Positions 6,337-58,494 of a stretch of 64,000 nucleotides of DNA are shown here, piece by piece. The notes beneath the pieces were generated by a model that worked only from the letters and a program-made list of their open reading frames with translations, was not told the origin of the DNA and searched no databases. A program made the position numbers and the translations under genes. This stretch comes from an uncultured Methanomicrobiales archaeon (GTDB lineage Archaea > Halobacteriota > Methanomicrobia > Methanomicrobiales > Methanospirillaceae), in NCBI GenBank assembly GCA_903832665.1, contig CAILCG010000024.1, positions 186,001 to 250,000 on the forward strand, read 5' to 3'. Within the stretch, counting starts at the first letter, position 1. Every line of letters starts with the position of its first letter.

Positions 6337-6448
6337 GGGAGCCCGGTTTGAGATCCGGATCCCGACCGGCACCTGGCGATTTCCTGCGGATTAGGCAACT
6401 GAAGATCCGGAACACTCTTTCCATATGATGGGTCGGGGGCGTCCGCGC

Positions 6449-7192: not shown

Positions 7193-7199
7193 AAAAAAA

Positions 7200-7886
7200 T
7201 TACTGGATGGCATCAACGGTTGCTTTCAAAACCGCTGCGCCCTGATCATAGACTGCGTTGCCTACAACAATCGTATCTGCATATTTGCTCATCTGTGCCG
7301 CTTTCTCGGCAGAGTTGATCCCGCCCCCGTAGTAGAGGATGGAATTATGGATCGCTTCAGATGCTGCTTTCACCACAACCGGATCCCCAAACATGCCGCT
7401 GTACTCGATGTAGATAATCGGGAAATGGAAATAGTGATCAGCAACACCCGCAAAGGCAGCGACTTCTTCCGGTTTGAGATCGCAGGCTGCTTTTGTCACC
7501 TTTCCGACCGAGGAGTTCGGGTTGAGCACGATATAGGCCTCGGGAACAATATATTCCCACGGTATCTTTTCCTTCTGCTGCTGCACCCAAGCCCGGTGTT
7601 TGCCCACGATCCACTGCACATCCGTTGAATTCAGCACACTGGGAACGAAAACATAATCGATTCCCTGCATGAGTACAGCCTCTGGACCGGCCGGCTCCAT
7701 TACAAGGGGCAGATCATAGGCTTTTACCTGTTTTTGCAGGGCCGCAAGATTTTCTTCTGTCACATTGAGCGTCCCTGAGAGCATCAGTGCATCGGTACCA
7801 CTTGCGGCTATCGCGTCGATATCCCCGGGTTTCAGCTGCTTGTCAGGATCGAGTTTGGTCACATGCACCCAGTCTTTCCACTTCAT
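7200..7886 (-). CDS. Geranylgeranylglyceryl phosphate synthase
   Basis: Makes the first ether bond of archaeal membrane lipids by joining sn-glycerol-1-phosphate and geranylgeranyl diphosphate. The TIM-barrel protein of about 228 residues shows family motifs: VHVTKLDPDKQL at the N-terminus, DALMLSGTLNV, YIVLNPNSSVGKVT, and the phosphate-binding loops ILYYGGGINS and TIVVGNAVY. It belongs to the short euryarchaeal form. The ATG at 7886 gives the usual family N-terminus (MKWKDWVHVTK); ATGs at 7895 and 7916 are alternatives. The RNA methylase gene follows by 7 bases. Two more lipid genes (tetraether synthase type and carS) lie in the window at 34-36 kb but are not linked to this one. Confidence 0.93.
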   Translation of the reverse strand: MKWKDWVHVTKLDPDKQLKPGDIDAIAASGTDALMLSGTLNVTEENLAALQKQVKAYDLPLVMEPAGPEAVLMQGIDYVFVPSVLNSTDVQWIVGKHRAWVQQQKEKIPWEYIVPEAYIVLNPNSSVGKVTKAACDLKPEEVAAFAGVADHYFHFPIIYIEYSGMFGDPVVVKAASEAIHNSILYYGGGINSAEKAAQMSKYADTIVVGNAVYDQGAAVLKATVDAIQ

Positions 7887-8106
7887 CACAATCATAGTAC
7901 CTTTGGCGTTTCCCATTCATATACCGGTTACCTAATCCGGAACCTTTTTCAGAACCGCGAGGTCGTAAGATGGAGGCGCCTGGGCCCGGGTCCCTGAAAG
8001 AAATCGGTAAAAAAGATCCTGGTGACCCGAGATTTCACTTGTGATATTTTATGGAAAAAGGACGGGGTTTTTTGAAAAAATCTCTGTGCTGGCCCCCCCG
8101 GGGTTA

Positions 8107-8475
8107 TTATCTGCCGGCTGCCAGTTCTATGGCAACCCTCAGGTCCTTGTCATCGAATGGTTTAACCAGGTATGCATTCGGGTGCGTTGCTCTTGCCCGG
8201 GCAAGTGTCTCTTCATCGGTGCGGGAAGTGAGATATACGATTGCCATATCATACTTTTTCTTGATCTCTCCTGCAATGGTGATTCCGTCCGGCTGGCTGC
8301 TGAGGGATATATCCATCAGGACGATCTCCGGCTTGATCTTTGCGATCTGCTCGAGAGCATCTTTCCCATTCATGGCCCTTCCGCAGAACTCATGCCCCAT
8401 CTTTTTTATCCGCCATTCCGTTGTCTTTGCAATGATATCGTCGTCCTCAACAATGAAAATCCGGGCCTTATGCAT
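8107..8475 (-). CDS. Single-domain response regulator (CheY-like)
   Basis: A receiver domain with nothing attached (about 122 residues). It has the acidic pair in IFIVEDDDIIAK, the phospho-acceptor Asp in IVLMDISLSSQ, Thr/Ser in VYLTSRTDE and the Lys in YLVKPFDDKD. It probably relays phosphate from one of the kinases of the neighbouring signalling island; no output domain is present. It is closely similar in layout to the stand-alone receiver at 20010. ATG 8475 is preferred; an ATG at 8487 adds four residues. The gene lies alone, 74 bases downstream of the end of the HEAT-repeat gene on the same strand. Confidence 0.9.
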   Translation of the reverse strand: MHKARIFIVEDDDIIAKTTEWRIKKMGHEFCGRAMNGKDALEQIAKIKPEIVLMDISLSSQPDGITIAGEIKKKYDMAIVYLTSRTDEETLARARATHPNAYLVKPFDDKDLRVAIELAAGR

Positions 8476-8581
8476 AGTACTCCCCACTTTTTCTTGTCAG
8501 GTTACTAAAGAGCCTGCACCCACTAACAAACATCACACAATTTCTTATATAATATGTTCCATGACCCGGATACGGCTCTTT

Positions 8582-11041: not shown

Positions 11042-12450
11042 CTCAGGGGGCTTCCCGGTACATCTTCCAGCCGGTCGATCGCTTCAACAGCCCTCCTCCT
11101 GATTTCGTCATCCTTTGTCTTCAGGAGCATGATGAGGGCTTCCATCACCGGGCGATCTTCATTCACTCGTTTCAGGATGGCGCGGAGTCTGCTGTCCTGG
11201 TTATCATCCCTCATGATGGCGATGATTTTGTCTGTTTCCTGCGACCCCAGCTGTTCAAGGGCTTTTCTTTCCTGTCGCGTGTTCCAGATCTCGGCGGTGG
11301 ATGTGATGCCGGGACTTTCCATGTCATCATCAAATGCGGTCTTCCAGACCTTGAGGCCTTCACGTTTACGGAGGATGTATTCTGCTTTCTGGACGATCTG
11401 TTCATCTACCCCCTTGGTAGCAGCGATCAGCACTTCGGTAACCTTGGGGTCAATGCTTTTTGCAAAGGCATCGAGGCTGGCGAGGCGTGCGATACGCGAT
11501 CCTTTTTTCATGACCTCAAGAATCATCGGCAATGCCGGTTCCCCGATCTCCCCAAGAGCTGCTGCAGCGCTTGTCCTCGTCTCCGGAAAAGCATCATTGA
11601 GTTTATTGACGAGGGGCGGTATCACGCTGGGATCCGGAATTTTTCCCAGGGCCCGTATTGCAGCCAGCCTTGCGATAGGTTTTGTATCGTTCAGTGCAGC
11701 TACGAGCGGCTGGAATGCCGGCATTCCAATTCCCGACAGGGCGTCTGCGGCGGCATTACGGACGGCCGGGTTGCTGTCGTAGAAGAGGTTGACGAGGAAG
11801 GGAATTGCCCGTGGGTCTGACAGTTCGCCCAAGGCATACGCGGCCGGCGCCCTGACTTCTGGTTCCGGATCGGTGATGGCACGGGTTAACGGTTCAAACC
11901 CATCCGGATCCCCGATTGAGCCAAGCGCAATTGCTGCTCCCCTGCGGACCTCTGCATTTTCATCCCGTAATCCTTCGATGAGATACGGAATAGCTTTTTT
12001 CTTAAATGCAGCCAGTTCTTCCCAGGCTCCCTGGGCAAACAAAAAACAGACCTTTATCTCATCGTCCTCAGGAGCCCAGCGGAGCCGGGTGAGAGCCTGT
12101 GTTGCCCCGTACCGCACGAGCCATGACTGGTTCCCCATCGCATTGAACAGGAGAGGAAGAGCGGTCTCCCCGATTGCAACCAGGGCATTAATCGATGCCT
12201 CCCGTACTCTTGTATCCTCGTCATTCAGACTCGTGATGAGTGCGGGGCATGCGTCAGAAGAACAAAAATTGGAGAGTGCCCGTGCCGCCTCCAGCCGGAT
12301 ATCCGCTTCATGATACAGCAGGGCTTCAATCAGTCCATCGATATTCTGGCTCGTTTCCAGTTTCTTTATATTCGGTACCGATCCGAAGACGCTCATGCCC
12401 AAACGCGGTTCTCCTCCGGTTCGCAGGAACCGGCCGCTGATCCAGCCCAC
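10969..12450 (-). CDS. HEAT-repeat protein, N-terminal piece of a split gene
   Basis: About 470 residues of HEAT repeats (for example LIEALLYHEADIRLEAARAL, LITSLNDEDTRVREASINAL, LTRAITDPEPEVRAPAAYAL) followed by about 25 residues after the frame break (SPLRWLSMIVIPLSGRLL) that look non-native. It overlaps the C-terminal piece by 73 bases in another frame, and together they form one array. A TATA-like CATATATATAAT at 12476-12487 places the transcript start almost at the GTG (12450), so a leaderless GTG start is plausible; an ATG at 12396 (MSVFGSVPNIKKLE) is the alternative. Role as in the C-terminal piece: protein-binding scaffold, partner unknown. Confidence 0.8.
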   Translation of the reverse strand: MGWISGRFLRTGGEPRLGMSVFGSVPNIKKLETSQNIDGLIEALLYHEADIRLEAARALSNFCSSDACPALITSLNDEDTRVREASINALVAIGETALPLLFNAMGNQSWLVRYGATQALTRLRWAPEDDEIKVCFLFAQGAWEELAAFKKKAIPYLIEGLRDENAEVRRGAAIALGSIGDPDGFEPLTRAITDPEPEVRAPAAYALGELSDPRAIPFLVNLFYDSNPAVRNAAADALSGIGMPAFQPLVAALNDTKPIARLAAIRALGKIPDPSVIPPLVNKLNDAFPETRTSAAAALGEIGEPALPMILEVMKKGSRIARLASLDAFAKSIDPKVTEVLIAATKGVDEQIVQKAEYILRKREGLKVWKTAFDDDMESPGITSTAEIWNTRQERKALEQLGSQETDKIIAIMRDDNQDSRLRAILKRVNEDRPVMEALIMLLKTKDDEIRRRAVEAIDRLEDVPGSPLRWLSMIVIPLSGRLLPAILGNLAG

Positions 12451-14454: not shown

Positions 14455-15888
14455 ATGACACTGGCCGATGAAGCGGGTACGATACTTATCGTTGAGGATG
14501 AGTTTATCACCGGAACCGATATCCAGAACAGTCTCATCGATATGGGTTATCGTGCACCATTCGTAATCAATAATGGGCCGGAAGCCGTCAGGAGAGCCGG
14601 CGAGTTGCGTCCTGATGTTGTCCTGATGGACATTACGCTCCGGGGGGAGATGTCGGGTATTGAGGCAGCGGCCCGGATTAAAGCGGATCTGGGCATTCCT
14701 GTAATTTTTCTTACCGCCCATTCGGACGAATCCACGATAGACAAGGCGGTACTCTCCGAACCGTTCGGATACATTATCAAGTCTTTCGATCCCCGGAGCC
14801 TGCATATCAGTATCAGGATGGCACGGTACAAGCACGCCATGGATGAAAAATTACGGGTAAGCGAGGATAGATACCGGGGTTTTGTCCAGAATTTTCTGGG
14901 GATTGCCTTTCGTTTTGATCCTGATTTCTCGGTTATTTTCCTTCACGGCGCCACAGAGTCGATTACCGGGTACAAAGAAGAGGATTTTATGACCGGTGCT
15001 GTATCGTGGGAACAGCTCCTCCATCCGGACGATGCCGACTGCATCGTACCTCAAAACACTATGATCCGGCAGTGCAGGGAATATGCCGGTTCACGGGAAT
15101 ACCGGATCCTCCGGAAAGACGGCGAGGTCCGGTGGATCTTCGAACTTCTTCAAAAGGTACCGGCGACCCTGCTCTCACCATCCTACATGCAGGGAGCCTG
15201 TTACGATATAACGGACCGGAAGATTGCTGAGGATGCGATCCGGATTGCAAACCGGAAACTCAATCTCCTCAATAACATAACAAGGCATGATATCCTCAAT
15301 TCCCTTCATGGCCTTCTGGGGCTTCTCGAGATGGCACAGGATGTTATCAAGGATCCGGAAGCACGACTTCTCCTTTCCGATATGCAAATTTCCACCGGGC
15401 AGATTCAGAAGCAGATCACTTTCACCCGGAATTACCAGGATGTCGGGGTCAAAACCCCCGTATGGCAGGGAATAGCCTCTTGTATCGAACGTGCGGTCCT
15501 TGCGATCAGCCACGATCCGGTCAAAGTATCTGTTATGGTGGATAAAAATCTCGAAATTTTTGCCGACCCTCTTCTCGAAAAAGTCTTTTACAACCTCCTG
15601 GACAACGGACTCCGGTATGGAGATACCATAACAGAGATCCGGTTCCATACCGAGCATAAGGATCATTGCCTGGTGCTGGTGTGTGAGGATGACGGTGTTG
15701 GGGTTCCTCTGCCGGAGAAGGAGTGCAGATTTGAACAGTGCGTAGGAAAAAATACCGGCATGGGCCTCTTCCTTTCCCGCGAGATCCTCATGATCACTTC
15801 CATCACGATCAGGGAATCCGGAGATCCCTGTAAGGGGGCACGATTTGAAATTATGATCCCTCCCGGTTCGTGGCGGATGAAAGGGTGA
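14455..15888 (+). CDS. Hybrid response regulator-PAS-histidine kinase
   Basis: Intact copy of the kinase architecture also seen at 4984: receiver (ILIVEDEFITGTDIQNSL, Asp in VVLMDITLRGEM, Lys in YIIKSFDPRS), PAS (YRGFVQNFLGIAFRFDPDFS to ITDRK), phospho-acceptor His in NITRHDILNSLHG, and an ATP-binding domain with N-box NLLDNGLRYG, G1 CEDDGVGV and G2 GMGLFLSREIL, ending in ARFEIMIPPGSW. About 477 residues; soluble. The ATG at 14455 is chosen because it precedes the receiver directly; a GTG at 14416 adds a poor tail. It likely phosphorylates receivers of the same island. The ligand or redox state seen by the PAS domain cannot be told. Confidence 0.9.
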   Translation: MTLADEAGTILIVEDEFITGTDIQNSLIDMGYRAPFVINNGPEAVRRAGELRPDVVLMDITLRGEMSGIEAAARIKADLGIPVIFLTAHSDESTIDKAVLSEPFGYIIKSFDPRSLHISIRMARYKHAMDEKLRVSEDRYRGFVQNFLGIAFRFDPDFSVIFLHGATESITGYKEEDFMTGAVSWEQLLHPDDADCIVPQNTMIRQCREYAGSREYRILRKDGEVRWIFELLQKVPATLLSPSYMQGACYDITDRKIAEDAIRIANRKLNLLNNITRHDILNSLHGLLGLLEMAQDVIKDPEARLLLSDMQISTGQIQKQITFTRNYQDVGVKTPVWQGIASCIERAVLAISHDPVKVSVMVDKNLEIFADPLLEKVFYNLLDNGLRYGDTITEIRFHTEHKDHCLVLVCEDDGVGVPLPEKECRFEQCVGKNTGMGLFLSREILMITSITIRESGDPCKGARFEIMIPPGSWRMKG

Positions 15889-16049
15889 TGATCCTTTACA
15901 TTTCAATGCAAAGAAATGGGGTGTGCTCTTACATCCAGTGTCGTCTTTAAAAACCTTATAAAAAAACCAATCCGTATAACTTCTCCCGGTATCGTAACGA
16001 TGATTTTATTTTCGATAAGCCATAATCGGAAACATGCCGGACGTATCTC

Positions 16050-16418
16050 ATGAAACTGCAGAAAAAGTCCCTTTTGGTTTTTGTCATACTTCTTATCGCG
16101 GTTCTCATTGGGATCAGTATCTTTTTCTCCACGGTTCTTCTGGCAAGTTATAGCGCTCTCGAAGAACAATATATTGCAAAGGATCTCAACCAGGCAGTCA
16201 ACAAACTCGATGACGAACTTTTCTCCATGTCATCGGTTATATCGGACTGGGGACCCTGGGATGATACGGTCGAGTTTGTGAACGGCAGGGATCCGAACTA
16301 CCTGAAATCAAATCTGCAACCGTATGCATTCGATAACCTCAACCTGAATCTGATCGTGATCACCGGCACCAAAGGAGAAGTGATCTTCTCCGGGGCATAT
16401 GATCTCAAAACAAGGTGA
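16050..16418 (+). pseudogene. Large CHASE4 sensor kinase, N-terminal piece
   Basis: N-terminal 122 residues of a membrane sensor: a transmembrane helix (about 7-31, LLVFVILLIAVLIGISIFF) and the first half of an extracellular CHASE4 domain (LNQAVNKLDDELFSMSSVIS, DWGPWDDTVEFV, VITGTKGEVIFSGAYDLKT). The frame stops at 16418, in the middle of CHASE4. Removing one A from the ACAAGG at 16410-16415 would join it to the next frame as DLKTGDGPGPRIFSGKLD, which agrees with the domain. The start ATG follows T/A-rich promoter-like sequence (CTTTAAAAACCTTATAAAA at about 15946-15963). Confidence 0.8.
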
Positions 16419-18747
16419 TGGTCCCGGTCCCCGCATTTTTTCCGGGAAACTGGATCCAGAAGATCCCCTGATGAATATGTCGGATCCCCGTCACATAACC
16501 TCAGGAATCCTGATGCTTCCCGGTGACCCGATGCTGGTTGTATCCCAACCGGTTGTACGCTCCAATTATTCCGGTTCTCCCCAGGGAGTAATCATTATGG
16601 GCAGGTACCTCAACAATGAGGAAATCTCGCGGCTTTCAGGGCTCACTCAACCCAGTCTTACATTCATCCGCATGGATGATCCGGCCTTGTCCCGGGATCT
16701 TTTGTCCCGTATCCGGCAGAACACGGGAACGGCGGGAGGTGTATTCCAGCCGCTCAACGAGAATCTTGTGGCGGGATCTGCCCTTATCCGCGACATTTAT
16801 GGGAATGATGCGCTCGTTCTCCGGATCATTGAGCCCCGGGAGATTTACCGCCAGGGGGTTAATACCACGGTCCAGGTCATCCTGATCTTCCTTGCAGGTG
16901 GTCTCTTTCTGGGACTTGGCGTCATCCTTCTGCTGGATCACGTGGTGCTGAAGCGAATCGGATCTCTTGCTCTTCAGGTCCATGAGATTGGCCAGTCAGG
17001 ACATTCTGATCATCCCGTCTTTGTTGAGGGTGATGACGAATTGTCAGGGCTTGCCCGGGAAATAAACCGGATGCTGAATACCATCGAGCAGGTGCAGCAG
17101 AAGGTGCAGGTGAGCGAGACACGGTTCAGAGAGCTGGCTGAACAGCTGCCCCTGGTAATTTTTGAGATGGATCTGAACGGGGATCTCAATTATGTCAATA
17201 AAACCGGGGTTGAACTTTTCGGGATCAACGAGGAAATGATCCAGGCAGGCATTAATATCCGCCGCTACGTATCTGCGGAAAATTTTGAACAGATGCACCA
17301 AGGACTCTCTGTCGTTATGTCCGGCGCCAAATCACCCGGGGAGATCTATTCCCTGCGTCAGCTTAATGGCGAACTGATGCAGGCTATCGTGTCGACCTCT
17401 CTTATTCGTCGCGATGGCCGGATCACCGGGTTCCGCGGGATCGTGCTCGACATCTCCGAACGGGTCCGTCTCGAGTCCGCACTCACGCAGAGCGAGGAGT
17501 ATCTTCAGACTCTTATACAGTCGATCCGGGTGGGAATTATTGTCATAGATGCAAAAACCCACATAATTATTGATGTAAATCCGGCTGCTCTTGAACTGCT
17601 CGGTACGGTAAAAGATGCTGTTATCAACCAGCCCTGTCATAACGTGATTTGCCCGTCAGAACAGGGAAGATGTCCCATCACCGATCTAAACCAGACCGTG
17701 GATGATACCGAGAGGACTCTCCTGACCGCGGATGGCAGGGAGATCTCGATAATAAAATACGTAGTTCCGGTAATGCTGCACGGCAAACTCTGTCCTCTCG
17801 AAACGTTTATCGATAACCGCTACCGGAAACAGATTGAACTGAAACTGGCGGAAAGTGAAGAGAAATACCGGGCTCTTGCAGAAAACTCTGCAGACATTCT
17901 CTTCTCTATCGATGTCTCGGGTTCATTTACCTATATTTCCCCGCAGGTATCCCGGTACGGGTACAGCCCTCAGGAAATTTTGGGAAAAGAGATCCGGCAG
18001 TTTATTCACCCGGATGATCAGGTGCAAATTCTGAACAATTATCGCAACGAAATTCACGACCGCTTATCCATCTCTTCAACCTTCAGGATCATTGATCGGA
18101 AGGGTGTACTTCACTGGATAGAGGAGAACAGTAATATCAAGCGGGACCCGGATGGCAATCCGACCGGAATGGTTGGAGTTCTCCGCGATGTCACCGACCG
18201 CGTGCGGGCAGAAGAAGCACTCCGTCAGAGCAGGGAGCGGCTTGAAAATATCCTGCGGGCATCCCCTGTAGTAGTCTTTGAGACAGATCCGGGGGGGCAT
18301 CTCGTTTTTGCCAGTGACCTGTGGGAACGACTGATTGGGTACCCCTTTGAAACGATGAAAGGTCTGCACTATTCCGATGTCCTTCACCCCGATGACCGGA
18401 ATCGCGTCGCACAGGATATAAAAGCCCGGGACTGGGCCCCGGGACCTGCCGGGAACGAATTGAGGATCATCCGGCCCGATGGATCGGTGGTGTGGGTATT
18501 TGAGCAGTCTGTGGCGGTCTTCAACCCTGATGGATGTATCCGCGGGTATGTGGGAACCATTACCGATATCACGCAACGCAAGAAGATGGAAGAAGCCCTT
18601 GCAGAGAATGAAGAGAAGTACCGGGCACTTACGGAAAATACCGGCGATATACTCTTCTCTGTTGATATGACTGGGAGGTTTACCTATGTCTCTCCCCAGA
18701 TCAATAAAATTTCATCCATCCGGAGGATATTGACGATGTTGAACTGA
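16399..18747 (+). pseudogene. Large CHASE4 sensor kinase, middle piece (HAMP, multi-PAS)
   Basis: Continues the CHASE4 domain (SGILMLPGDPMLVVSQPVV, GSPQGVIIMGRYLNNEE), then a second transmembrane helix (about VQVILIFLAGGLFLGLGVIL), a HAMP segment (VLKRIGSLALQVHEIGQSG to EINRMLNTIEQV), and five PAS domains in series (starts near ELAEQLPLVIFEMDLNG, LIQSIRVGIIVIDAKTH, YRALAENSADILFSIDVSG, ILRASPVVVFETDPGG, YRALTENTGDILFSVDMTG). The second PAS holds several Cys (CHNVICPSEQGRCPI) that could bind metal or sense redox; inference. The frame fails at about 18706 after SPQINK: the text resumes in another frame with FIHPEDIDDVEL, so about 15 residues of the PAS domain and the frame are lost. The printed start codon is not the true start. 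Confidence 0.82.
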
Positions 18748-19949
18748 ATTTAGCACGGGATCTTGAAATAGGAGCCCAGTTTCATTCTGCATTCAGGATT
18801 CTTGATAAATGGGGAAATACCCACTGGCTCGATGAGAAAGGCACTCTGCGACTCGATCAGTCCGGAAAACCCCTGGGAATCTATGGGGTTTTGCGGGATG
18901 ATTCAGAACGAAAATGGGCAGAAGAGGCACTGACGGAATTAAAAAATCTGTACATGGCGATCTTCGATAATACCGGTAGTGCCATGATCATCATTGGGCA
19001 AGACTCCTCAATTATCCTGGCCAACCCCGGGTGGGCAGGCCTTACCCGGATTTCAAGGGTAAAAAGTGTCGGGCGGAGATGGACTGATTTTATCTATCCG
19101 GAAGATCTTGAGCTGCTGAAAAAAGATAATAACGGTAGTAACGAGAATTTCACACGTACAAATGAATATTCTTTCCGGATCATCGATGCGGTAAAAAATG
19201 TTCACCACTGTCTTGTCAGTATTGTTGTGATTCCCGGCACTACCAACAGTATCGTCGCCATCGTTGATATTACTGAACGGAAACGGGCTGAAGATGCAAT
19301 CGAACTGGCCAATAAAAAATTAAACCTGATGAATAACATCACCCGACACGACATCCTCAATATCATCACCGGCCTCCTCGGCTGCGTTGACATGGCAAAT
19401 GCCACGACATCGGCAGAAGAACGGGTAAGTCTGCTCAGGGATATCAAGGAACTTACCCGGATTATCCAGCGCCAGATCACCTTTACCCGGGAGTACCAGG
19501 AAGTCGGGGTCCACCTGCCGTTGTGGCACAATGTCAACGCACTTCTCAAAAAAATATTGCCGAATTTTACTAAATCCGGCATTGCGATCTCTTCCGAGTT
19601 TGAAATGATGGAGATCTATGCGGATCCATTGCTCGAAAAAGTGTTTTATAATCTTCTTGATAATGCAATCCGGTATGGGGAAACTCTTACATCTGTCTCA
19701 ATTTACCCAAGCATTTCCGATAAGGGTCTCTCGTTAATATTTGAGGATAATGGCGTCGGGGTTGCGCCCGGCCAGAAATATGAGATCTTTAAACGGGGGG
19801 TTGGGCAGAATACGGGCATGGGTCTCTTCCTGACAGCAGAAATTTTAGCAATAACCGGGATAACCATCGAAGAAAATGGAGTTTTTGGGACCGGTGCCCG
19901 GTTCGAAATCCGCGTTCCGAACGGTACCTGGAGGCTCCCCCCAAGATAA
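18708..19949 (+). pseudogene. Large CHASE4 sensor kinase, C-terminal kinase piece
   Basis: Carries the rest of the broken PAS (FIHPEDIDDVELNLARDL, AFRILDKWGNTHWLDEKG), one more PAS (MAIFDNTGSAMIIIGQDS to VDITERKRAED), the phospho-acceptor His in NITRHDILNIITG and an ATP-binding domain (NLLDNAIRYG, EDNGVGV, GMGLFLTAEIL) ending GTGARFEIRVPNGTW. There is no start codon at the frame break; an internal ATG at 18891 is not a natural start. Assembled, 16050-19949 would encode one kinase of about 1300 residues. The kinase part is very similar to that of the gene at 4984 (GLLGCVDMA, TFTREYQEVGVHLP), so the two probably arose by duplication. Confidence 0.82.
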
Positions 19950-48690: not shown

Positions 48691-49209
48691 ATGCCTCTCA
48701 TCCAGATCCGGCCGGAGGATGTCGTAGCCTCGTATCATGTCCTGCAAAAAGATGCAACCGATGGCGGCTATCACCTGAATCCGGACGCCGAGTTTACAAA
48801 AAATCTCGTTTCAGGCCTTTTAAAAAATGAGCAGCGTTACGGGTATCCTGCCTGCCCGTGCCGGCTTGCGTCCGGCAAAAAAGAGCAGGATCTCGATATC
48901 ATCTGCCCCTGCGATTACCGGGATCCTGATCTCAATGACTTCGGATCCTGTTACTGTGCCTTGTATGTCAGCGACGCGATTGCAAACGGGGGGAAAATAT
49001 CCGGTCCTGTGCCCGATCGCCGCCCCCCTCGTTCTGAACGGGGAACGATCATTACTCATACGATCCCTCTCTCGGCATCGCCGTCACCTACCCTTCCCCT
49101 TCCGGTCTGGCGCTGCAAAGTCTGTGGCTACCTGTGTGCCCGGGAGCAACCTCCTGAGATCTGTCCCATCTGCAAAGTGACGAAGGACCGGTTTGAACGG
49201 TTCATGTAA
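48691..49209 (+). CDS. Ferredoxin-thioredoxin reductase catalytic subunit fused to rubredoxin
   Basis: 172 residues. The N-terminal part (about 1-110) is the FTR catalytic beta subunit: cluster and disulfide cysteines in [26 protein letters not shown] and SCYCALYV carry a [4Fe-4S] cluster next to a redox disulfide and pass electrons from ferredoxin to a thiol protein. After a linker (about 110-135) a rubredoxin-type domain (about 136-172) supplies an Fe(Cys)4 site: [20 protein letters not shown] with ICKV. The fusion suggests that electrons enter or leave through rubredoxin iron instead of a separate FTR variable subunit, none of which is seen here. The likely target is the adjacent glutaredoxin-like protein. 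Confidence 0.9.
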
Positions 49210-49647: not shown

Positions 49648-50229
49648 TCAGGTAACTCTCGTAAGGGCACCCGTACCGAGATCATAGTAAAGACCGTGGA
49701 CCTGTACTCTCTGCTCATCAACAGCCTTTTTCAGCAGGGGGTACGTGTGAAGATGTTCTATCTGGAGCCTCACGTTCTCCTGTTCTATCAGCCGGTATCG
49801 CTCATCCTTTTCAAGCACCGTAGTCGGAGTGGGTATCGTCTTGTCCCCCCGTTCTTTCGCGTCCCGGGCATTGTTCAGCCACAGGGGAATGTACGAGTCA
49901 GTGCTTTCCTTATCCAGCGCCCGGATCGCCCCGCAGTTTGAATGTCCGCAGATGACCACATCTTCAACCTTGAGGTGAACAACAGCGTATTCAAGTACCG
50001 TGGCAAAATTCCAGTCATGGATCGGCACGATGTTACCGATATTTCTCTGTATGAAGAGTTCTCCCGCCCTTGCCTGCGTGATATGTCCCGTCTGGAGCCG
50101 GGAATCCGAGCATCCGATCCAGAGCACGGTCGGATGCTGGCTCGACGCCAGCTCGCGGTAGTAATCGATGTTCGGGGTGAAATCAGATTCCCGGAACTTA
50201 AAATTTCCCAGCAATAATTTGTCGCTCAT
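49648..50229 (-). CDS. Beta-class carbonic anhydrase
   Basis: Interconverts CO2 and bicarbonate. 193 residues with the zinc ligands Cys in VLWIGCSDSRLQ and H-x-x-C in VVICGHSNCGAIRAL; the Asp-Arg dyad (CSDSR) is present. It feeds or removes CO2 for methanogenesis and for carbamoyl phosphate synthesis. Convergent with the small Cys-rich gene (3 bases apart). It lies 1.1 kb from the Hyf-like operon, a possible link discussed under findings. Confidence 0.95.
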   Translation of the reverse strand: MSDKLLLGNFKFRESDFTPNIDYYRELASSQHPTVLWIGCSDSRLQTGHITQARAGELFIQRNIGNIVPIHDWNFATVLEYAVVHLKVEDVVICGHSNCGAIRALDKESTDSYIPLWLNNARDAKERGDKTIPTPTTVLEKDERYRLIEQENVRLQIEHLHTYPLLKKAVDEQRVQVHGLYYDLGTGALTRVT

Positions 50230-50667: not shown

Positions 50668-51327
50668 TTGTGGAGGTGCCGTATACCGATCATATCTTCG
50701 TATGCTGAGCCGGAACCGTTCAGCGAGGACCAGACGCTCCTTACGCTCTATACTCTTGCCGGTGAGGAGAGCGGAGGTTTTGTTACATTCCGCCCTCATT
50801 TTTTTGTCCGGATTGGCAAAGCCCTGTTCTCCCAGGGGACCGTCCCATCACCGGTCCCGGTTATCGGTCCGGTTGAAGTCCGGGAACTCACGCCCTCGGA
50901 ACTTGTCCGTGCTGAACGGGAGCTCTGGACCCATTACCACCAGCAGACTGCCGATCGGGTCAATGACCGGCTCTTTGCCGCCTTTGCCGGTACCAAGCTG
51001 ATTGGCGTGGCCCGGTGCTCACGTCATCCCGATGGCCTCGAGGTCGATGCCGTCTATGTCCTGGACGAATACCGTCGCCAGGGGTTTGCCCGTTCGGTTA
51101 TGATCCTTCTCATCGTGGAATGTGGATGCCAGGAGACGCTCTATATGCACTCGAAGACGGAACTGGTGGATTTCTATGGCAGCCTGGGTTTCTACCCTAT
51201 GCCCGAGTGCGATCTGCCAAAGACCATCCGGGACCGGTTCGGATTTGTTATGGGAAATCTCAAGGGAATTGATGTCTGCCTGATGAAACGGGATCCGGCC
51301 GCCCTTCCCCGGGAACAGAACACCTGA
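50668..51327 (+). CDS. GNAT family N-acetyltransferase
   Basis: 219 residues. A long N-terminal part (about 1-70) precedes a GNAT domain: VRELTPSELVRAERELW, AFAGTKLIGVARCSRHP, the acetyl-CoA loop VLDEYRRQGFARSVMILL (R-x-x-G-x-[AG]) and YGSLGFYPMPECDLP. Substrate unknown. The only in-frame start is a TTG at 50668, so the true start is uncertain. It ends 15 bases before the Hyf-like operon and is on the same strand, so it may be its first gene and could modify a complex subunit or respond to its function (inference). Confidence 0.78.
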   Translation: MWRCRIPIISSYAEPEPFSEDQTLLTLYTLAGEESGGFVTFRPHFFVRIGKALFSQGTVPSPVPVIGPVEVRELTPSELVRAERELWTHYHQQTADRVNDRLFAAFAGTKLIGVARCSRHPDGLEVDAVYVLDEYRRQGFARSVMILLIVECGCQETLYMHSKTELVDFYGSLGFYPMPECDLPKTIRDRFGFVMGNLKGIDVCLMKRDPAALPREQNT

Positions 51328-51342
51328 ATTAGGGAGTAATAA

Positions 51343-53286
51343 ATGATCGTTGAACTTTTTATTCTTGCAATCCTGGTACTGCTGGCTGGCACCCTGCTGC
51401 CTCTTGCCGCGGTATCGCAGGACCGGAGAATCGTGCGGACGATCTCCCTCTCCTGTATCATCATTGCCTCTCTCCTGCTGGCATGCCTGTCCCTCGCGAA
51501 CCTGTTCTCCGGTAAACCGGTCCCTTTTACCCTCTACCAGCCCCTTCCTCTCGTTTCCCTCTCGTTCGTGATCGACCGGCTCGCCTCCTTTTTCCTGCTA
51601 ATCATTGCGGTCGTGTCGGCTTGTGTCGCCATCTACTTCTCTGAATATATCGAGCATATGGAAGGGCAGTCCCGCAGGAACCTGCTCTGCGGCAGCACCA
51701 GTCTTTTCATTCTCGCGATGGTTCTCATCGTCGCTTCGGCAAACACGCTCTCCTTTTTCCTGTTCTGGGAACTGATGGCAGCCAGCTCGTTCCTGCTGGT
51801 TACCTACGAGTATACCCATGATGAGACCCGGAAAGCCGGGATCTTTTACTTTATGATGACCCAGCTCTCATCGCTCTTTGTCCTGCTGGGAATCATTGTT
51901 CTCTATGTCGTGTCAGGTTCTCTGGCAATCGCCCCGTTAACCGCCGCATCGACTCCCTTGGTTACGCTGGCATTTCTCCTCCTGTTTGTGGGATTCTCTG
52001 TAAAGGCAGGTATCATCCCGTTCCACAAGTGGCTGCCGTACGCCCACCCGGCAAGCCCGTCCCCCATCTCCGCCCTCATGTCAGGCGTCATGCTCAAGAT
52101 CGCCGTGTACGGCATGGTGCGTTTCCTGTTGAACGTCTTCACCCCCGATCTCTGGTGGGGGGTGCTGATCCTGGCAGCGGGTACCGCATCGGCGGTTCTG
52201 GGGATCATCTACGCGTTAAAAGAGCACGACATCAAGGGCATGCTCGCCTATTCGAGCATCGAGAATCTGGGGATCATCTTCATGGGTATCGGCCTGTCGG
52301 TGATCTTTACTGCCAGCGGTCTTCCCGATCTTGCCACCCTCAGCCTGCTCGGAGCGCTCTTCCACTCCTTAAACCATGCGATGTTCAAGAGCCTGCTCTT
52401 CCTCACCGCGGGGTCCGTGGTATCTGCCACCCATACGCGGGATATCGAACACATGGGAGGACTTGCCCACCGGATGCCGGTCACTTCTGCTCTTTTCTTT
52501 GTCGGAGCTGTTGCGATTGCGGCCCTGCCTCCCTTGAACGGGTTTGCCAGCGAGCTCCTGATCTTCATCTCGTTCTTCACCTCGATGGCTGAAGTGATTC
52601 CCCTGTATAAGGTGTTCCTGTTCATCTGCCTTGCCCTGTTTGCCCTGACCAGTGCCCTTTCGGCAGCGTGTGTCATCAAGGCATTTGGATCGATCTTCCT
52701 GGCTCTCCCGCGTTCTCCCGAGAGCGCCGCTGCCCGCGAAGTTCCCCGTGCCATGCTGATCGGGCCGGGCATCCTTGCCGCAGCCTGTATTCTCCTGGGA
52801 GTGGGTGCCCTCCAGATCTTTGCCCTCGTGGGTTTTCCGGTCCCCCTGCCGGATATGCTGCTGGTCAGCCTGCTGCTCATCGGCATGGCCGTCCTTACCT
52901 ACGCGGTGCTCTATTTCACTGCCTCCCGCGAAGTGCGGGTGAGTGAGACCTGGGGATGCGGGACACTCTCGCAGCGGGCATCGGCTGAGTACAGCGGTCA
53001 TGGGTTCTCGGAACCTCTCGACATCATCTTCTCGGCGATCTACCGCACCCGGACCACCAATGAACGGAAGTTCTTTGACCAGAAAAACTGCCACTTCAAA
53101 GAGGGTTACGGAGAGATTCGTCTCTTAAAAGTGTTTGAGGAATATCTCTACACTCCCATTGCGAAGAAGTCCGTTCTGGTGGCTCTTCGCATCTCGCGTT
53201 TCCAGAACGGGTGCCTGGATACCTATCTCCTGTACGTCTTCATCACGGTCATTGCCCTGATCATTTTCCTCGGGTGGTTTGCATGA
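51343..53286 (+). CDS. hyfB: Hyf-like complex, antiporter-type membrane subunit B
   Basis: 647 residues, about 15 membrane helices; family of HyfB/HycC/NuoL-type ion-translocating subunits. Key charged residues of the translocation path are present: Glu143 in FFLFWELMAASSF, Lys221 in FSVKAGIIPFHKWLP and the Lys/His region LKEHDIKGMLAYSSIENLG. The C-terminal 130 residues (TWGCGTLSQRASAEYSGHGF, YRTRTTNERKFFDQKN) are the usual HyfB/HycC extension. Ribosome-binding site AGGGAG lies 8 bases before the ATG. First gene of the six-gene complex; the stop overlaps hyfC (ATGA). Confidence 0.93.
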   Translation: MIVELFILAILVLLAGTLLPLAAVSQDRRIVRTISLSCIIIASLLLACLSLANLFSGKPVPFTLYQPLPLVSLSFVIDRLASFFLLIIAVVSACVAIYFSEYIEHMEGQSRRNLLCGSTSLFILAMVLIVASANTLSFFLFWELMAASSFLLVTYEYTHDETRKAGIFYFMMTQLSSLFVLLGIIVLYVVSGSLAIAPLTAASTPLVTLAFLLLFVGFSVKAGIIPFHKWLPYAHPASPSPISALMSGVMLKIAVYGMVRFLLNVFTPDLWWGVLILAAGTASAVLGIIYALKEHDIKGMLAYSSIENLGIIFMGIGLSVIFTASGLPDLATLSLLGALFHSLNHAMFKSLLFLTAGSVVSATHTRDIEHMGGLAHRMPVTSALFFVGAVAIAALPPLNGFASELLIFISFFTSMAEVIPLYKVFLFICLALFALTSALSAACVIKAFGSIFLALPRSPESAAAREVPRAMLIGPGILAAACILLGVGALQIFALVGFPVPLPDMLLVSLLLIGMAVLTYAVLYFTASREVRVSETWGCGTLSQRASAEYSGHGFSEPLDIIFSAIYRTRTTNERKFFDQKNCHFKEGYGEIRLLKVFEEYLYTPIAKKSVLVALRISRFQNGCLDTYLLYVFITVIALIIFLGWFA

Positions 53287-54224
53287 ACCTGGATTTTCTT
53301 CTTTACCTGGCGATCAATACCCTGGTCGTCATTGCCGTTTCACCCCTCTTTGTCAGCCTGATCAAGAAGATCAAGGCCCGGACCCAGGGGCGGCAGGGCC
53401 CCACCGTCTTCCAGACCTATTATACGCTCATAAAACTGCTGAAAAAAGAGGTCATCTACTCTCCCAACTCCTCGCGGATCATGCGGGTCACGCCGCTGGT
53501 AACGATGGCCGCAATCCTTGTTGCGGCGCTCTTTGTCCCGCTGGTCTTTGTACCTGAACCGGTCGGGGGCATCGGCAACATCATCCTCTTTTTGTACCTG
53601 CTCGCGCTGGCCCGCTTCTTCATGGCACTCGCGGGGCTGGATGCCGGCAGTTCCTTTGGAGGGATGGGCAGCTCGCGGGAGATGAGCATCTCGTCCATCA
53701 TCGAGCCCACGACCATCATTGTCTTTGCTGCGCTCGCGTTCGTCTTTAAAACCCTCAACATCTTTGACATGTTCACCCTCAATGCGTCCACCGGGTCACC
53801 TTCCCCCTCAACCCTCATCCTGATTGGGATCTCGTTGTTCATTATCATCATCGTGGAGACCTCCCGGATACCGGTTGACAATCCCGAGACGCATCTCGAA
53901 CTGACCATGATCCACGAGGGGATGATTCTTGAACAGTCGGGCAGGAACCTGGCCCTCATGGAACTCTCTGCGGCAGTCAAGATGACGGTCCTCATGGCGC
54001 TTCTCATCAACCTGATTGTTCCCTTCGGGCTGATGACTACCCTGACCCTTGCCGGGCTCCTCATTGCCATTGTCGTCTTCGTGGTGAAGGGTTCTATCCT
54101 GGCGGGCATCATCGGTCTCTTTGAATCCTCGATGGCCAAGAAACGGTTCTTCCAGCTCCCGAGTCTCTTTGCCATGGCATTCTTCTTCTCGACCTTAATC
54201 ATCATCATCGCGGTGTTCTCATGA
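53283..54224 (+). CDS. hyfC: Hyf-like complex, membrane subunit C (NuoH/HycD type)
   Basis: About 313 residues with 8 membrane helices, homologous to HyfC/HycD/NuoH, the subunit that connects the peripheral arm to the antiporter subunits. Visible are the cytoplasmic loop RTQGRQGPTVFQTYYTLIKL, the loop SSFGGMGSSREMSISSIIEP and the acidic loop VDNPETHLELTMIHEGMILE that lines the quinone/coupling region in complex I. All coupling-loop residues I can check are kept even though the redox sites in HyfG and HyfI are lost. Start ATG in the hyfB stop; stop overlaps hyfE. Confidence 0.93.
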   Translation: MNLDFLLYLAINTLVVIAVSPLFVSLIKKIKARTQGRQGPTVFQTYYTLIKLLKKEVIYSPNSSRIMRVTPLVTMAAILVAALFVPLVFVPEPVGGIGNIILFLYLLALARFFMALAGLDAGSSFGGMGSSREMSISSIIEPTTIIVFAALAFVFKTLNIFDMFTLNASTGSPSPSTLILIGISLFIIIIVETSRIPVDNPETHLELTMIHEGMILEQSGRNLALMELSAAVKMTVLMALLINLIVPFGLMTTLTLAGLLIAIVVFVVKGSILAGIIGLFESSMAKKRFFQLPSLFAMAFFFSTLIIIIAVFS

Positions 54225-54910
54225 TCGACCAGGCGACCATTGAAGGGATCATCAGGATCCTCTTTGTCTGCATCATCATCACGGCTGCATATATCATCTC
54301 TACGCGAAACCTGCTCACCGTGGTGTCCGTCTACTCGCTCCAGAGCCTCACGCTTGTCGGCATTGCCCTTGCCCTCTGGTCGCTTGACGGTTCCATTGTT
54401 CTCCTGGAAATTGCGGTGATTACGTTGATCAGCAAGGTCATCATCATCCCGTACTTCATTGCAACCATCCAGGAAAAGATCCGGATCAAGCGGGACATCG
54501 AGTTCCACTACTTAAGTCCCACCACCTCGCTCATCATCTCCATGGCCCTGATGCTGGCCATCTACCTGGCGTTCACCCGGATCATGAAGGATTCCCCCAA
54601 TGCGACGGGGGGTCTCATCTTCTTTGGCGCTGTGCTGGGAATATCGCTGATGCTCATGGGAATGATGGTGACGTTCAGCAGGAAGAGGACGATCACCAAA
54701 GTCCTGGGTTTCCTTTCCATGGAAAACGGGGTACTCCTCTTCGGCATGTTCGTGACCGAACTCCCGTTCATCATCGAGTTTTTGATCGTGATCGACCTGA
54801 TCATTCTCGTTATCTTAACAACGATATTGTCGGTGGGTATCGACTCGACTCTTGAGGATTACCATAAACGTCTCCACCGTTTCCATCTCCTGGAAGAGGA
54901 GGAATCATGA
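54221..54910 (+). CDS. hyfE: Hyf-like complex, membrane subunit E
   Basis: 229 residues and about 7 membrane helices, matching HyfE, which corresponds to a NuoK-like subunit fused to extra helices. Features: IIIPYFIATIQEKIRIKRDI, ISLMLMGMMVTFSRKRTITK and FLSMENGVLLFGMFVTELPF; the Glu residues in the last segment fit the NuoK-type Glu pair. Overlaps both neighbours by 4 bases. Confidence 0.9.
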   Translation: MIDQATIEGIIRILFVCIIITAAYIISTRNLLTVVSVYSLQSLTLVGIALALWSLDGSIVLLEIAVITLISKVIIIPYFIATIQEKIRIKRDIEFHYLSPTTSLIISMALMLAIYLAFTRIMKDSPNATGGLIFFGAVLGISLMLMGMMVTFSRKRTITKVLGFLSMENGVLLFGMFVTELPFIIEFLIVIDLIILVILTTILSVGIDSTLEDYHKRLHRFHLLEEEES

Positions 54911-56388
54911 TCCTGATCGCCTTTGTGCTGGTATCCATCATATCGCTCATCATCATTGCAGCTACCCACAACCACCGTCACATGAATACGGTCTGCATCG
55001 CTCAGGCAGCGATCTTTACTCTGCTCGCTTCCTTTGTAGCGCTGTTCCTGCAGGTACCGGTTGTTTCGTTCTTCATTGGCAACGGATTCTTCTTTATCGA
55101 TCATCTCGGGCTTTTTGAGGTACTCATCGCCACGGTCATCTTTACCTGCGCTGCGGTGTATGCCCGAGGGTATATCGAAGGACTTCTTGAGAGCGGTGAA
55201 CTGGAGAAAGGAAGCCTGAAGCTTTTCTATATGGCCTGGGCCCTGCTCCTCCTGGTGATCGTGCTCGCATTCTTCTCGGATAACCTTGCCCTCTTCTGGA
55301 TCTTTGCCGAGCTGACCACCATTCTTTCCGCCATGCTCATTGCCATCCTGGCCGCCCGCGACAACATCGATGCAGCGATCAAGTATATCTTCGTCGCTTC
55401 CGTCTCCATGCTCTTTGCCTTTGTCGGGTTCATCTTCCTCTTCGAGACCTCGCGGGTTAAACTTGGCACCGGTACCCTGAACTGGACCGAGCTCATGCAG
55501 CATGCCGCCATGTTCTCGCCCAGCATGATGATCGCATCCTTTGTGCTCGTCTTTATCGGGTTTGCAGCAAAGTCCGGTATCTTCCCGTTCCACACCTGGC
55601 TGCCCGAAGCCCATGCCAAGGCTCCTTCAGCCGTCAGTGCCATCCTCTCGGGCGTCCTGTTGAACGTGGGTATCTACGGGATCATCCGCGTGTATGCGCT
55701 GGTTCACCAGACAACGGCCTTTGAGACCATTGCACCGATGCTCGCGGTCTTTGGTCTCCTCACGATCGGGATTGCCGCGTTCTCCATGCTTCCCCAGAAA
55801 AACCTGAAAAAACTGGTGGCCTTCTCGAGCGTGGAAAATATGGGGATTATGCTGGTGGGGCTTGCCATCTCCACGCCGGTTGCCATATTCTGGGTGCTCC
55901 TCCATATCCTGGCCCATTCCCTGACCAAGGCATCCCTGTTCTTCTCATCCGGTATCCTGCACCGCCAGTTCCGGAGCCGTTTCTCGAGCGACGCAGTCGA
56001 CGAGATCAAAGATGTATTCCGGTACCAGCCCCTGGCCGTATGGGGAGTTATCCTTGGGGGGCTTGCGATCATCGGTATGCCCCCGTTCCCCATCTTCTTC
56101 ACGGAATTCTTCATCATGCTGCAGCTGGGGACCGTCTCCCTGCCCGTACTGGCCGTCCTGATGATCCTCCTGTTCATTGCTGCGGGGGGACTGGGATACT
56201 TTGTGCTCACGACTTTTACCCAGGTGTCCGAACCGGATGCCCCCTCAGACATTGAACCCTACCGGGTCCCCGCCAGCATGAAAGTCCCCATCATCTTTTT
56301 GCTCGCGCTTCTCCTGCTCATCGGGATCCTGCTTCCGGCACAGGGTATGGAGTTTCTCAACCAGATCGTCATGGAGCTGAAATTCTGA
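54907..56388 (+). CDS. hyfF: Hyf-like complex, antiporter-type membrane subunit F
   Basis: 493 residues, about 14 helices, NuoN/M/HyfF type. The translocation-path residues are present: Glu135 in LALFWIFAELTTIL, Lys222 in AAKSGIFPFHTWLPEAHA and the Lys-rich turn NLKKLVAFSSVENMG. Together with subunit B this gives two antiporter-type modules. A HyfD-type third module is not encoded. Stop overlaps the hyfG start by one base. Confidence 0.92.
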   Translation: MILIAFVLVSIISLIIIAATHNHRHMNTVCIAQAAIFTLLASFVALFLQVPVVSFFIGNGFFFIDHLGLFEVLIATVIFTCAAVYARGYIEGLLESGELEKGSLKLFYMAWALLLLVIVLAFFSDNLALFWIFAELTTILSAMLIAILAARDNIDAAIKYIFVASVSMLFAFVGFIFLFETSRVKLGTGTLNWTELMQHAAMFSPSMMIASFVLVFIGFAAKSGIFPFHTWLPEAHAKAPSAVSAILSGVLLNVGIYGIIRVYALVHQTTAFETIAPMLAVFGLLTIGIAAFSMLPQKNLKKLVAFSSVENMGIMLVGLAISTPVAIFWVLLHILAHSLTKASLFFSSGILHRQFRSRFSSDAVDEIKDVFRYQPLAVWGVILGGLAIIGMPPFPIFFTEFFIMLQLGTVSLPVLAVLMILLFIAAGGLGYFVLTTFTQVSEPDAPSDIEPYRVPASMKVPIIFLLALLLLIGILLPAQGMEFLNQIVMELKF

Positions 56389-57968
56389 TGACTTCAGATA
56401 CGGATATCGGGATTAGGGCGGCACAGGAATTCCTGGGCACGGATCTGCTGAAAGACCGGATCAATGCCGGACCCTATGATGAACAGTACGTGCGCATCGA
56501 AGAGACGGAATTTGAGTCCGCAGTAACGCACCTGGCTGCCAACAAGTTTGTCCTGATCAGTCTCTTCTGCTGCGAAGGCTTCACGGCAAACGCAGCCCAG
56601 ACGCTCTTTTACGTCTTCGAACGGAGGACGAGCATCCTCGTGCTGGTTCGGGGGGTAAATGGACAGGCTACATCCGTTGCCGATCTCTACCCGGCAGCCT
56701 CCTGGTTTGAACGGGAATGCCGGGACGGGTTCGGTGTTGAGTTTGCGGGGGCTTTCGATACCCGGCGGCTCTTCCTGCACGAGACCTACCCGGAGGGTTT
56801 CCACCCGCTGAAAAAATCATTTAAGAATGCGCCGGTTGTCACCAAAAAGACCGTTGACCCTGCCGGGGAATACCCGTTCCGGGAAGTGAGCGGTGAGGGG
56901 GTATACCAGGTGCCGGTGGGCCCGGTGCATGCGGGAATCATTGAGCCGGGGCATTTCCGGTTCAGCGTGATCGGGGAGTCGATCTTCAATCTTGAGGTCC
57001 GGATGTTCTACAAGCACCGGGGCATCGAGAAACTAGCAGAGGGGAAGACCCCGCAGGAGTGCGTGCGGATCGCCGAAGCAGTGAGCGGCGATGAATCTGT
57101 AGCGAATGCAACCGCGTTCTGCATGGCTATTGAGAAGATCTCCCGGGTGCCGGTCCCCGAACGGGCCTGGTACCTGCGGACCATTCTCATGGAACTCGAG
57201 CGTCTCTGCTCGCACCTGGGGGACCAGGCCGGGATGCTGGTCGATGTGGCGTACCCCCTGGGGGCCAGCCAGTTCTCGGTACTGCGGGAGGAATGTTTCC
57301 GCGAGAACGATCGCCTTACCGGTTCACGGTTCCTGCGGGGGATGGTATCTCCCGGCGGTCTGAACCGGGACATTCCAAAAGCGCAGCTCGATGAGCTGGC
57401 TGCATTTGTTCACCAGATGCGGAACCGGTACAAGGTCGGGCTGAAGATTGTGCTCTCCACCGCGTCAGTGATCGACCGCTTTGCTACGACCGGAGTGATC
57501 CGCCCGGCACTGCTGCGCCCGCTCAATATCACCGGGCCGGCCGCACGGGCGTCCGGTGGCAAGGTCGATGTCCGGGTGAACCACCCCTATGGTATCTACG
57601 ACAAGTTCGCCCCCAGGGTGCCACGGCTCCGGGACGGGGATGTCCTCTCCCGGTTTACGATCAAGGCCTCGGAGGTCATGGACTCGCTGGATCTGATCGA
57701 ACGGCTGATTGCCGCCATGCCGGAGGGAGCCGTCCGGTCCGATGCCCCGGTCCGCGATGGCTACACCCTTGCGATGGTGGAATCTGCCCGCGGCCAGAAT
57801 CTCTGCTGGGTCTGGATCAAGGGCGGCGTCATTGAACGGTACAAGGTGAGGACCGCATCGTTCTGCAACTGGCTGGCGATCGAGCATGCAGTGCAGGGAA
57901 ATATTGTCCCGGATTTCCCGGTCATCAACAAGAGCCTGAACCTCTCGTACGCGGGGACGGACCTGTGA
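56388..57968 (+). CDS. hyfG: Hyf-like large subunit, NuoC-NuoD type, without NiFe ligands
   Basis: 526 residues: a NuoC-like N-terminal domain (about 1-140, ASWFERECRDGFGVEFAGAF, RRLFLHETYPEGFHPLKKSF) and a hydrogenase-large-subunit/NuoD domain. In true hydrogenases the domain begins with R-x-C-G-x-C and ends D-P-C-x-x-C. Here the first motif reads RIAEAVSGDESVANATAF (Ala229 and Val232 at the Cys positions) and the end reads SLNLSYAGTDL (Ser520 and Gly523). All four Ni-Fe-binding Cys are therefore gone. The gene stops right after that motif, so the C-terminal peptide cut off during NiFe maturation is also missing. The protein cannot be a hydrogenase; other regions (GIIEPGHFRFSVIGESIFNL, MELERLCSHLGDQAGML) are well kept, so the fold is under selection. 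Confidence 0.92.
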   Translation: MTSDTDIGIRAAQEFLGTDLLKDRINAGPYDEQYVRIEETEFESAVTHLAANKFVLISLFCCEGFTANAAQTLFYVFERRTSILVLVRGVNGQATSVADLYPAASWFERECRDGFGVEFAGAFDTRRLFLHETYPEGFHPLKKSFKNAPVVTKKTVDPAGEYPFREVSGEGVYQVPVGPVHAGIIEPGHFRFSVIGESIFNLEVRMFYKHRGIEKLAEGKTPQECVRIAEAVSGDESVANATAFCMAIEKISRVPVPERAWYLRTILMELERLCSHLGDQAGMLVDVAYPLGASQFSVLREECFRENDRLTGSRFLRGMVSPGGLNRDIPKAQLDELAAFVHQMRNRYKVGLKIVLSTASVIDRFATTGVIRPALLRPLNITGPAARASGGKVDVRVNHPYGIYDKFAPRVPRLRDGDVLSRFTIKASEVMDSLDLIERLIAAMPEGAVRSDAPVRDGYTLAMVESARGQNLCWVWIKGGVIERYKVRTASFCNWLAIEHAVQGNIVPDFPVINKSLNLSYAGTDL

Positions 57969-57978
57969 GGCGAAAAGC

Positions 57979-58494
57979 ATGGTAAACGCACTAACCTGTC
58001 TCTTAAAAAAGAACGTGACCGAAGAGGCGCCGGCCCGGGATGAAGAGGTCGAGGCAATCGGCCGCGAGATCCGGACCGTGATCGATGCAGTCTTCGGCCG
58101 GAGCCTGGCGATCCGCGAACTGGATACCGGTAGCGACAATGCCACGGAGATCGAGATCAACAATCTCAACAACCCCTTCTATGATGTGGAACGGTTCGGC
58201 ATCAGTTTTGTTGCCTCCCCCCGTCACGCAGATCTCCTGCTCGTGACCGGTGCTGTCACGCACAACATGGAGATCGCGGCGAAGAAGACCTACGATGCGA
58301 TGCCGTCTCCCAAATTCGTTGTCGCGGTCGGCGATGATGCCTGCACCGGTGGGATTTTTGCCGGGACCTATGCGGTTCTTGGCGGGGCGGACAAGATCTT
58401 CCCGGTGGACCTGAAGATCCCAGGCAATCCCCCCACACCGGCGCAGATCCTGTCGGGTCTGCTTGCCCTGATGAAGAAGGCCCGGAAGGAATAG
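57979..58494 (+). CDS. hyfI: Hyf-like small subunit, NuoB type, without iron-sulfur ligands
   Basis: 171 residues homologous to HyfI/HycG/NuoB, which carry the proximal [4Fe-4S] cluster. The usual ligands are C-x-x-C in D-T-G-G-C-N-G-C-E-I-E, a Cys in G-D-C-A-x-x-G-G and a Cys in P-G-C-P-P. Here they read DTGSDNATEIEI (Asp53, Thr56), VGDDACTGGIF (Asp120) and IPGNPPTPAQIL (Asn150), so none of the four ligands is left, while the surrounding residues are unchanged. One Cys (122) sits two positions after the lost third ligand. The subunit can hardly bind the cluster. Last gene of the operon, 10 bases after hyfG, followed by a tandem repeat and a T-run. Confidence 0.9.
   Translation: MVNALTCLLKKNVTEEAPARDEEVEAIGREIRTVIDAVFGRSLAIRELDTGSDNATEIEINNLNNPFYDVERFGISFVASPRHADLLLVTGAVTHNMEIAAKKTYDAMPSPKFVVAVGDDACTGGIFAGTYAVLGGADKIFPVDLKIPGNPPTPAQILSGLLALMKKARKE

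Follow-up and report, generated by a model that had tools for sequence, protein, structure and literature searches.

A six-gene hydrogenase-like operon in a Methanomicrobiales genome

The window, a 64,000-nt stretch of a contig from an uncultured Methanomicrobiales archaeon, contains six compact plus-strand genes between positions 51343 and 58494. Four of them encode membrane proteins: a HyfB/NuoL-like antiporter-type subunit (51343–53286), a HyfC/NuoH-like subunit (53283–54224; the longest ORF starts at 53211), a HyfE-like subunit (54221–54910) and a HyfF/NuoM-like antiporter-type subunit (54907–56388). The two antiporter-type subunits match the NCBIfam equivalog models PRK08667.1 and PRK08676.1, respectively, both named 'hydrogenase membrane subunit'. 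The last two genes encode a large subunit of the HyfG/HycE/EhrL type (56388–57968) and a NuoB-like small subunit of the NuoB/HycG/HyfI/EhrS type (57979–58494; domain match and alignments). Neither ferredoxin subunits of the HyfA/HyfH type nor an NADH or other electron-input module are encoded within the operon.

The arrangement is that of an energy-converting hydrogenase-related (Ehr) complex, a recognised family (PMC6349859, PMC4378227, PMC10284858), and the operon is directly orthologous to Mhun_1817-1822 of Methanospirillum hungatei, which was named ehrABCDLS in a 2016 genome paper (PMC4704411). The M. hungatei order of fdhA, fdhB, two genes and six ehr genes fits Mhun_1813-1822. An Altiarchaeales MAG (L035) carries the operon in two tandem copies, at 3904–11070 and 14838–19530.

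Upstream of the HyfB-like gene, separated from it by 15 bp, lies a plus-strand gene for a GNAT acetyltransferase (50668–51327). It is the first gene at many orthologous loci, in other families too, and its product may modify or regulate the complex. It is preceded by a minus-strand β-carbonic anhydrase gene, divergent from the operon (49648–50229), whose product has intact Zn ligands (CSDSR, HSNC). Further upstream, positions 48691–49209 encode a fusion of a ferredoxin-thioredoxin reductase catalytic domain (FtrB type) with a rubredoxin-like domain; a glutaredoxin-like gene comes before it, and the synteny is conserved in Methanoregula. We considered these two genes as operon partners and set them aside: their linkage is probably genus synteny, because carA/carB-like and ferritin-like genes are syntenic as well.

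The large subunit has lost all NiFe ligands

The large-subunit ORF is open and intact, and its single chain of 526 aa matches PF00329 (NuoC) followed by PF00346 (NuoD), the domain order of HycE and HyfG, as the first-pass annotation had proposed from the sequence. Its best solved relative is HycE of Escherichia coli formate hydrogenlyase (7z0s; E = 6.5e-92). When aligned with HycE and HyfG, the protein has no cysteine at any of the NiFe-ligand columns. The four cysteines that a group 4 [NiFe] hydrogenase carries here are therefore missing, as in the six-subunit operons assigned to Ehr.

At the first motif, AEAVSGDESVAN of the window protein falls opposite AERICGICSFIH in every comparison: with HycE and MbhL, with HycE again by BLASTP, and with an Ech-type large subunit encoded in this genome that has retained AERICGICSFIH. 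The ligand columns are thus Ser233 and Glu236, with Ser233-Gly-Asp-Glu236 (codons 57084–57095, plus strand) standing in place of CGxC; RxCGxCxxxH has also lost its Arg (now Ala231) and its His (now Asn240). At the second motif, Ser520-Tyr-Ala-Gly523 (codons 57945–57956, plus strand) takes the place of CxxC. The first-pass annotation had named the second pair correctly and had rightly called all four cysteines replaced, but its first pair, Ala229 and Val232, was misaligned and lies four residues upstream of the true columns in the HycE, MbhL and Ech-type alignments. The chain reads NLSYAGTDL-stop, ending at residue 526, three residues past the second motif, so it indeed has no maturation peptide.

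Ser233, Glu236, Ser520 and Gly523 are conserved across 17 aligned large subunits, the conservation among orthologues that the first-pass annotation had asked to see, and no orthologue within the clade retains the four cysteines. Because the change is shared by these 17 sequences, a frame or sequencing error, already doubted on first reading, is excluded, and the loss of the NiFe site is evolutionarily fixed. Wider Ehr relatives usually show Ser, Glu/Ser/Thr/Asn, Ser and Gly at the four columns. The NiFe loss itself is not new: for the orthologous M. hungatei operon Mhun_1817-1822, and for Methanosarcina homologues, large subunits without NiFe cysteines were described by Anderson et al. in 2009 (PMC2686161).

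The small subunit has also lost its [4Fe-4S] ligands

By analogy with NuoD of complex I, the first-pass annotation had implied a large subunit that functions without NiFe beside an Fe-S neighbour. The NuoB-like protein encoded next door does not support this picture. HycG (DCGGCNGCEIEI / GACG / PGCPP) aligns with the window small subunit as DTGSDNATEIEI / GDDA / PGNPP, which places the [4Fe-4S] ligand positions at Asp53, Thr56, Asp120 and Asn150 (codons starting at 58135, 58144, 58336 and 58426, plus strand): all four cysteines are gone. The proximal cluster ligands of a group 4 [NiFe] hydrogenase are consequently lacking, as are the N2 ligands of NuoB in complex I.

Among 13 small subunits, Asp53 and Asn150 are invariant, position 56 is Thr or Ala, and position 120 is Asp or Glu. 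The resulting D-[TA]-[DE]-N pattern is present in every Methanomicrobiales locus of the family (D-A-D-N in M. hungatei), in two Methanosarcina loci (L036, L038), in the Altiarchaeales MAG (L035) and in a Dehalococcoidales MAG (L037). It recurred in 19 of 20 further loci; in the remaining one, the contig ends before the small subunit. The four cysteines are kept by 59 small subunits in our set, mostly Ehr relatives and a few real hydrogenases, so the window clade differs from the state of most sampled Ehr members. Ehr loci of Methanoperedens and relatives (L039, L041, L042) also keep the Fe-S ligands, and have between the large and small subunit genes an extra gene for a ferredoxin-like protein that is absent from the window clade.

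We found no earlier report of this ligand loss in the openly accessible literature; the loss of the Fe-S site in the archaeal clade is the new part, the NiFe loss being already known. No conserved set of cysteines fit for a redox cluster occurs in any of the six clade subunits, which have isolated conserved cysteines only, such as C122 of the small subunit. These observations bear on the possibility that the complex is an oxidoreductase with an unseen cofactor, for example an Asp/Asn-ligated cluster, a flavin, F420, or an external formate dehydrogenase that docks onto it. A NiFe hydrogenase often tolerates the exchange of one Fe-S ligand for Asp (PMC4070099), and the M. hungatei ehr products have been proposed to likely reduce ferredoxin (PMC4704411). 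Here, however, four cluster ligands are lost at once, one being Ala or Thr, no other conserved cysteine set takes their place, and no ferredoxin-like subunit is encoded. We regard an oxidoreductase as quite unlikely.

The cluster ligands were lost twice

In a quick tree of 101 large-subunit rows (SH-aLRT support, no bootstrap), the window clade comprises 24 rows with 99% SH-aLRT and is nested among Ehr rows, that is, among large subunits without NiFe ligands. Two Micrarchaeota sequences, also without cluster ligands, join it at 95%. A second cluster-less Ehr group (Levybacteria, Daviesbacteria and others; Thr-Cys-Asp-Asp) lies elsewhere in the tree. Parsimony gave two changes of the Fe-S state, and a topology placing all ligand-less relatives in one common clade with a single loss was rejected (AU p = 3.4e-5). 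The second, unrelated Ehr clade lost its cluster separately, a repetition that also speaks against the oxidoreductase reading. Members of this second group (Levybacteria, Daviesbacteria and a Thermoleophilia MAG; L070, L072, L100, L110) show a convergent GDDA at the third ligand.

Sequences with all eight cysteines (L040, L051, L064, L061, L063) branch close to the base. Most Ehr relatives keep the [4Fe-4S] ligands, which suggests that the wider family began with a redox function and counts against the redox-free reading proposed below.

Pump residues, folds and purifying selection are retained

The membrane subunits retain the charged residues of a complex I-type pump. Invariant are E143, K221, H228, K298, H341, H345, K349 and E404 of the HyfB-like subunit, and E135, K222, H229, K301, H337 and K341 of the HyfF-like subunit. 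In the E-channel of the HyfC-like subunit (numbered from 53211), the acids E165, D223, E230 and E236 are invariant, and E226 and E241 are present in 91% of sequences. Seen from complex I, every counterpart of NuoL E144, K229, K305, H334, H338 and K342 is invariant, as are all those of NuoM E144, K234, H241, K312 and H348 and of NuoH E157, D213, E220 and D223; those of NuoH E216 and E228 are found in 91%. The Glu/Lys/His ion-path residues expected of NuoL-, NuoM- and NuoH-like pump subunits are thus in place.

Against two relatives, dN/dS was 0.05–0.18 for all six subunits, and the subunits that have lost their redox sites fell within the range of the membrane subunits. All six are under strong purifying selection. 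AlphaFold models of the large and small subunits (pLDDT 85.1 and 79.6) kept the folds; in Foldseek searches the best match of the large subunit was HycE (7z0s_E, TM 0.85), and the small-subunit model matched the NuoB/HycG/MbhJ family.

The loss of catalytic residues could by itself indicate a decaying hydrogenase operon, a pseudogene-like relic. Yet the ORFs are intact in dozens of genomes from several families, the replaced residues are invariant and dN/dS is low; intact conserved ORFs and selection exclude a pseudogene, and we find the relic reading scarcely credible. Because the clade has lost its last remaining Fe-S site too, its operon encodes a relative of complex I with no recognisable redox centre and with its pump predicted to be intact.

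Carbonic anhydrase and formate genes adjoin the operon

The β-carbonic anhydrase of the window, 1.1 kb upstream of the operon, is the sole one found in the genome. Across the clade, a β-carbonic anhydrase gene adjoins the operon in ∼19 of ∼33 loci with sufficient flanking sequence, in at least three arrangements: divergent with the GNAT gene in between (Methanoregula and kin), just upstream and codirectional or divergent (genus g12, including M. hungatei), and convergent, 19 bp downstream (genus g27; L129, L130). In six surveyed genomes with the linkage, the adjacent enzyme is likewise the sole β-carbonic anhydrase found. At one Methanoregula locus (L117, 15197–15795), the operon-adjacent gene, the only one found in its genome (G113), is split by a stop or frameshift, possibly a MAG sequencing error.

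We estimated the chance of random placement in the three linked lineages at ∼1e-8 to 1e-7, a figure that shared ancestry of the linkage would weaken. Gene linkage could in part be inherited synteny; its persistence through rearrangement is unaffected by this caveat, and the gene orders indicate that the association is non-random. The enzyme is not an obligate partner, since it is not adjacent to the operon in one Methanoregula subclade, in families f4 and f5, and in Methanosarcina. It is an ordinary Pro_CA protein and does not form the DAB pair of DabA (carbonic anhydrase-fold, DUF2309) and DabB; no DabA occurs among the annotated neighbours of the operon loci.

Formate genes are the second recurrent neighbours: in several genera, FdhA/FdhB and/or FdhC genes adjoin the operon. 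FdhA/FdhB pairs of the F420 type flank it on both sides at five loci (L129, L130, L131, L157, L158), a placement that would suit an external formate dehydrogenase as electron partner in the oxidoreductase reading, and FdhC-type transporter genes are nearby at four (L124, L129, L130, L174). Two Methanosarcina loci have a P-type cation ATPase near the operon, possibly H+-pumping by resemblance.

General neighbour clustering gave no universal partner of bacterial Ehr loci. At six loci from Acidobacteria, Methylococcales and a betaproteobacterial MAG (L052, L067, L090, L107, L109, L112), where the Ehr operons are Fe-S-containing, a SulP-family anion transporter gene lies 28–146 bp upstream of the HyfB-like gene. 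We did not accept it as proof of bicarbonate transport: it scores far below the NCBIfam BicA cut-off and higher with DauA/SulP, and serves as a lead only.

A redox-free translocator with a possible C1 link

The redox-free state of the clade complex follows, as far as sequence can tell, from the missing ligands. We propose, with roughly even confidence for and against, that the operon product is a redox-free, complex-I-shaped translocator of H+ (or Na+) with a C1 link; its assembly, translocation, C1 coupling and direction are what we infer. The proposal is supported because both the NiFe and the Fe-S ligands are gone, the replaced residues are conserved, the pump residues are kept, selection is purifying and the folds are retained.

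Under this proposal, a non-redox event would occur at the former active-site pocket between the large and small subunits. As a candidate event, a small C1 species (such as CO2/HCO3− or formate) might bind there or be converted; alternatively, a proton or cation could act in the now acidic pocket. Being acidic, the replaced pocket is not well suited to bind anions such as formate or bicarbonate. Through the E-channel of the NuoH-like subunit, the pocket event would be linked with both antiporter-type subunits, which might instead drive it in reverse. In methanogens, such a complex could help to manage CO2, bicarbonate, formate and charge, often beside a soluble β-carbonic anhydrase, and it is probably tied to the handling of these C1 compounds. 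We suggest the C1 link because of the carbonic anhydrase adjacency, the Fdh neighbours, an analogy to DAB2, and the finding that in Geobacter every Ehr subunit is more abundant on formate than under hydrogen-containing conditions (PMC7894505).

The main rival reading is simpler: an Mrp-like Na+/H+ antiporter that keeps pH and sodium in balance, whose NuoCD/NuoB arm would be left over as a structural or gating element and would bind no substrate. It fits the complete ion-path residues of both antiporter-type subunits, the absent redox centre and the Methanosarcina P-type ATPases. A passive leftover should drift in sequence, however, whereas constraint on the soluble subunits matches that on the membrane subunits and the pocket (SGDE/SYAG plus D-D/E-N) is invariant; the carbonic anhydrase and formate linkage would also be left unexplained. 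We consider the antiporter somewhat unlikely and favour the translocator with a C1 link.

Discussions of coupling in complex I usually have redox energy drawn through the junction of NuoB, NuoD and NuoH. A natural relative that conserves this junction and the pump but has no redox centre would demonstrate that another driving force can work the pump, and complexes of the window type offer a system for testing coupling elements without electron transfer. For methanogens, they suggest that ion coupling ties carbonic anhydrase to formate metabolism and to energy conservation, and the missing Fe-S ligands speak against ferredoxin reduction by M. hungatei Ehr (PMC4704411).

Comparison with known systems

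The closest known system is Ehr itself: the window operon shares with M. hungatei ehrABCDLS the six-gene order, the subunits and the absence of NiFe cysteines. Most sampled Ehr relatives, by contrast, keep the four small-subunit [4Fe-4S] cysteines that the window clade has lost. E. coli formate hydrogenlyase and hydrogenase-4 (HycE-HycG, HyfG-HyfI) give the best sequence matches for both window subunits, with HycE also the best structure match, and they have the subunit architecture and pump residues in common with the window complex, which differs from them in having no NiFe or Fe-S site, no HyfA/HyfH ferredoxin subunits and no maturation tail. With complex I (NuoCD, NuoB, NuoH, NuoL/M) it shares the fold and the proton-path residues, and the loss of NiFe cysteines in NuoD is a parallel; NuoB, however, keeps N2 and complex I its electron input, whereas in the window complex N2 is gone too and there is no NuoE/F/G/I. 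In DAB2, a redox-free NuoL-like subunit is coupled to a carbonic anhydrase-fold protein and proposed to drive CO2 hydration with no electrons (PMC13144422). DAB2 (DabA-DabB) thus resembles the window complex in joining a complex-I-type proton-path subunit, without electrons, to carbonic anhydrase chemistry (PMC13144422). DabA is itself of the carbonic anhydrase fold with Zn, whereas in the window the carbonic anhydrase is encoded separately as a soluble protein and the arm consists of NuoCD/NuoB. The parallel with DAB2 goes no further than analogy, since DabB has no pumping ion pairs and the charged set is complete in the window antiporter subunits.
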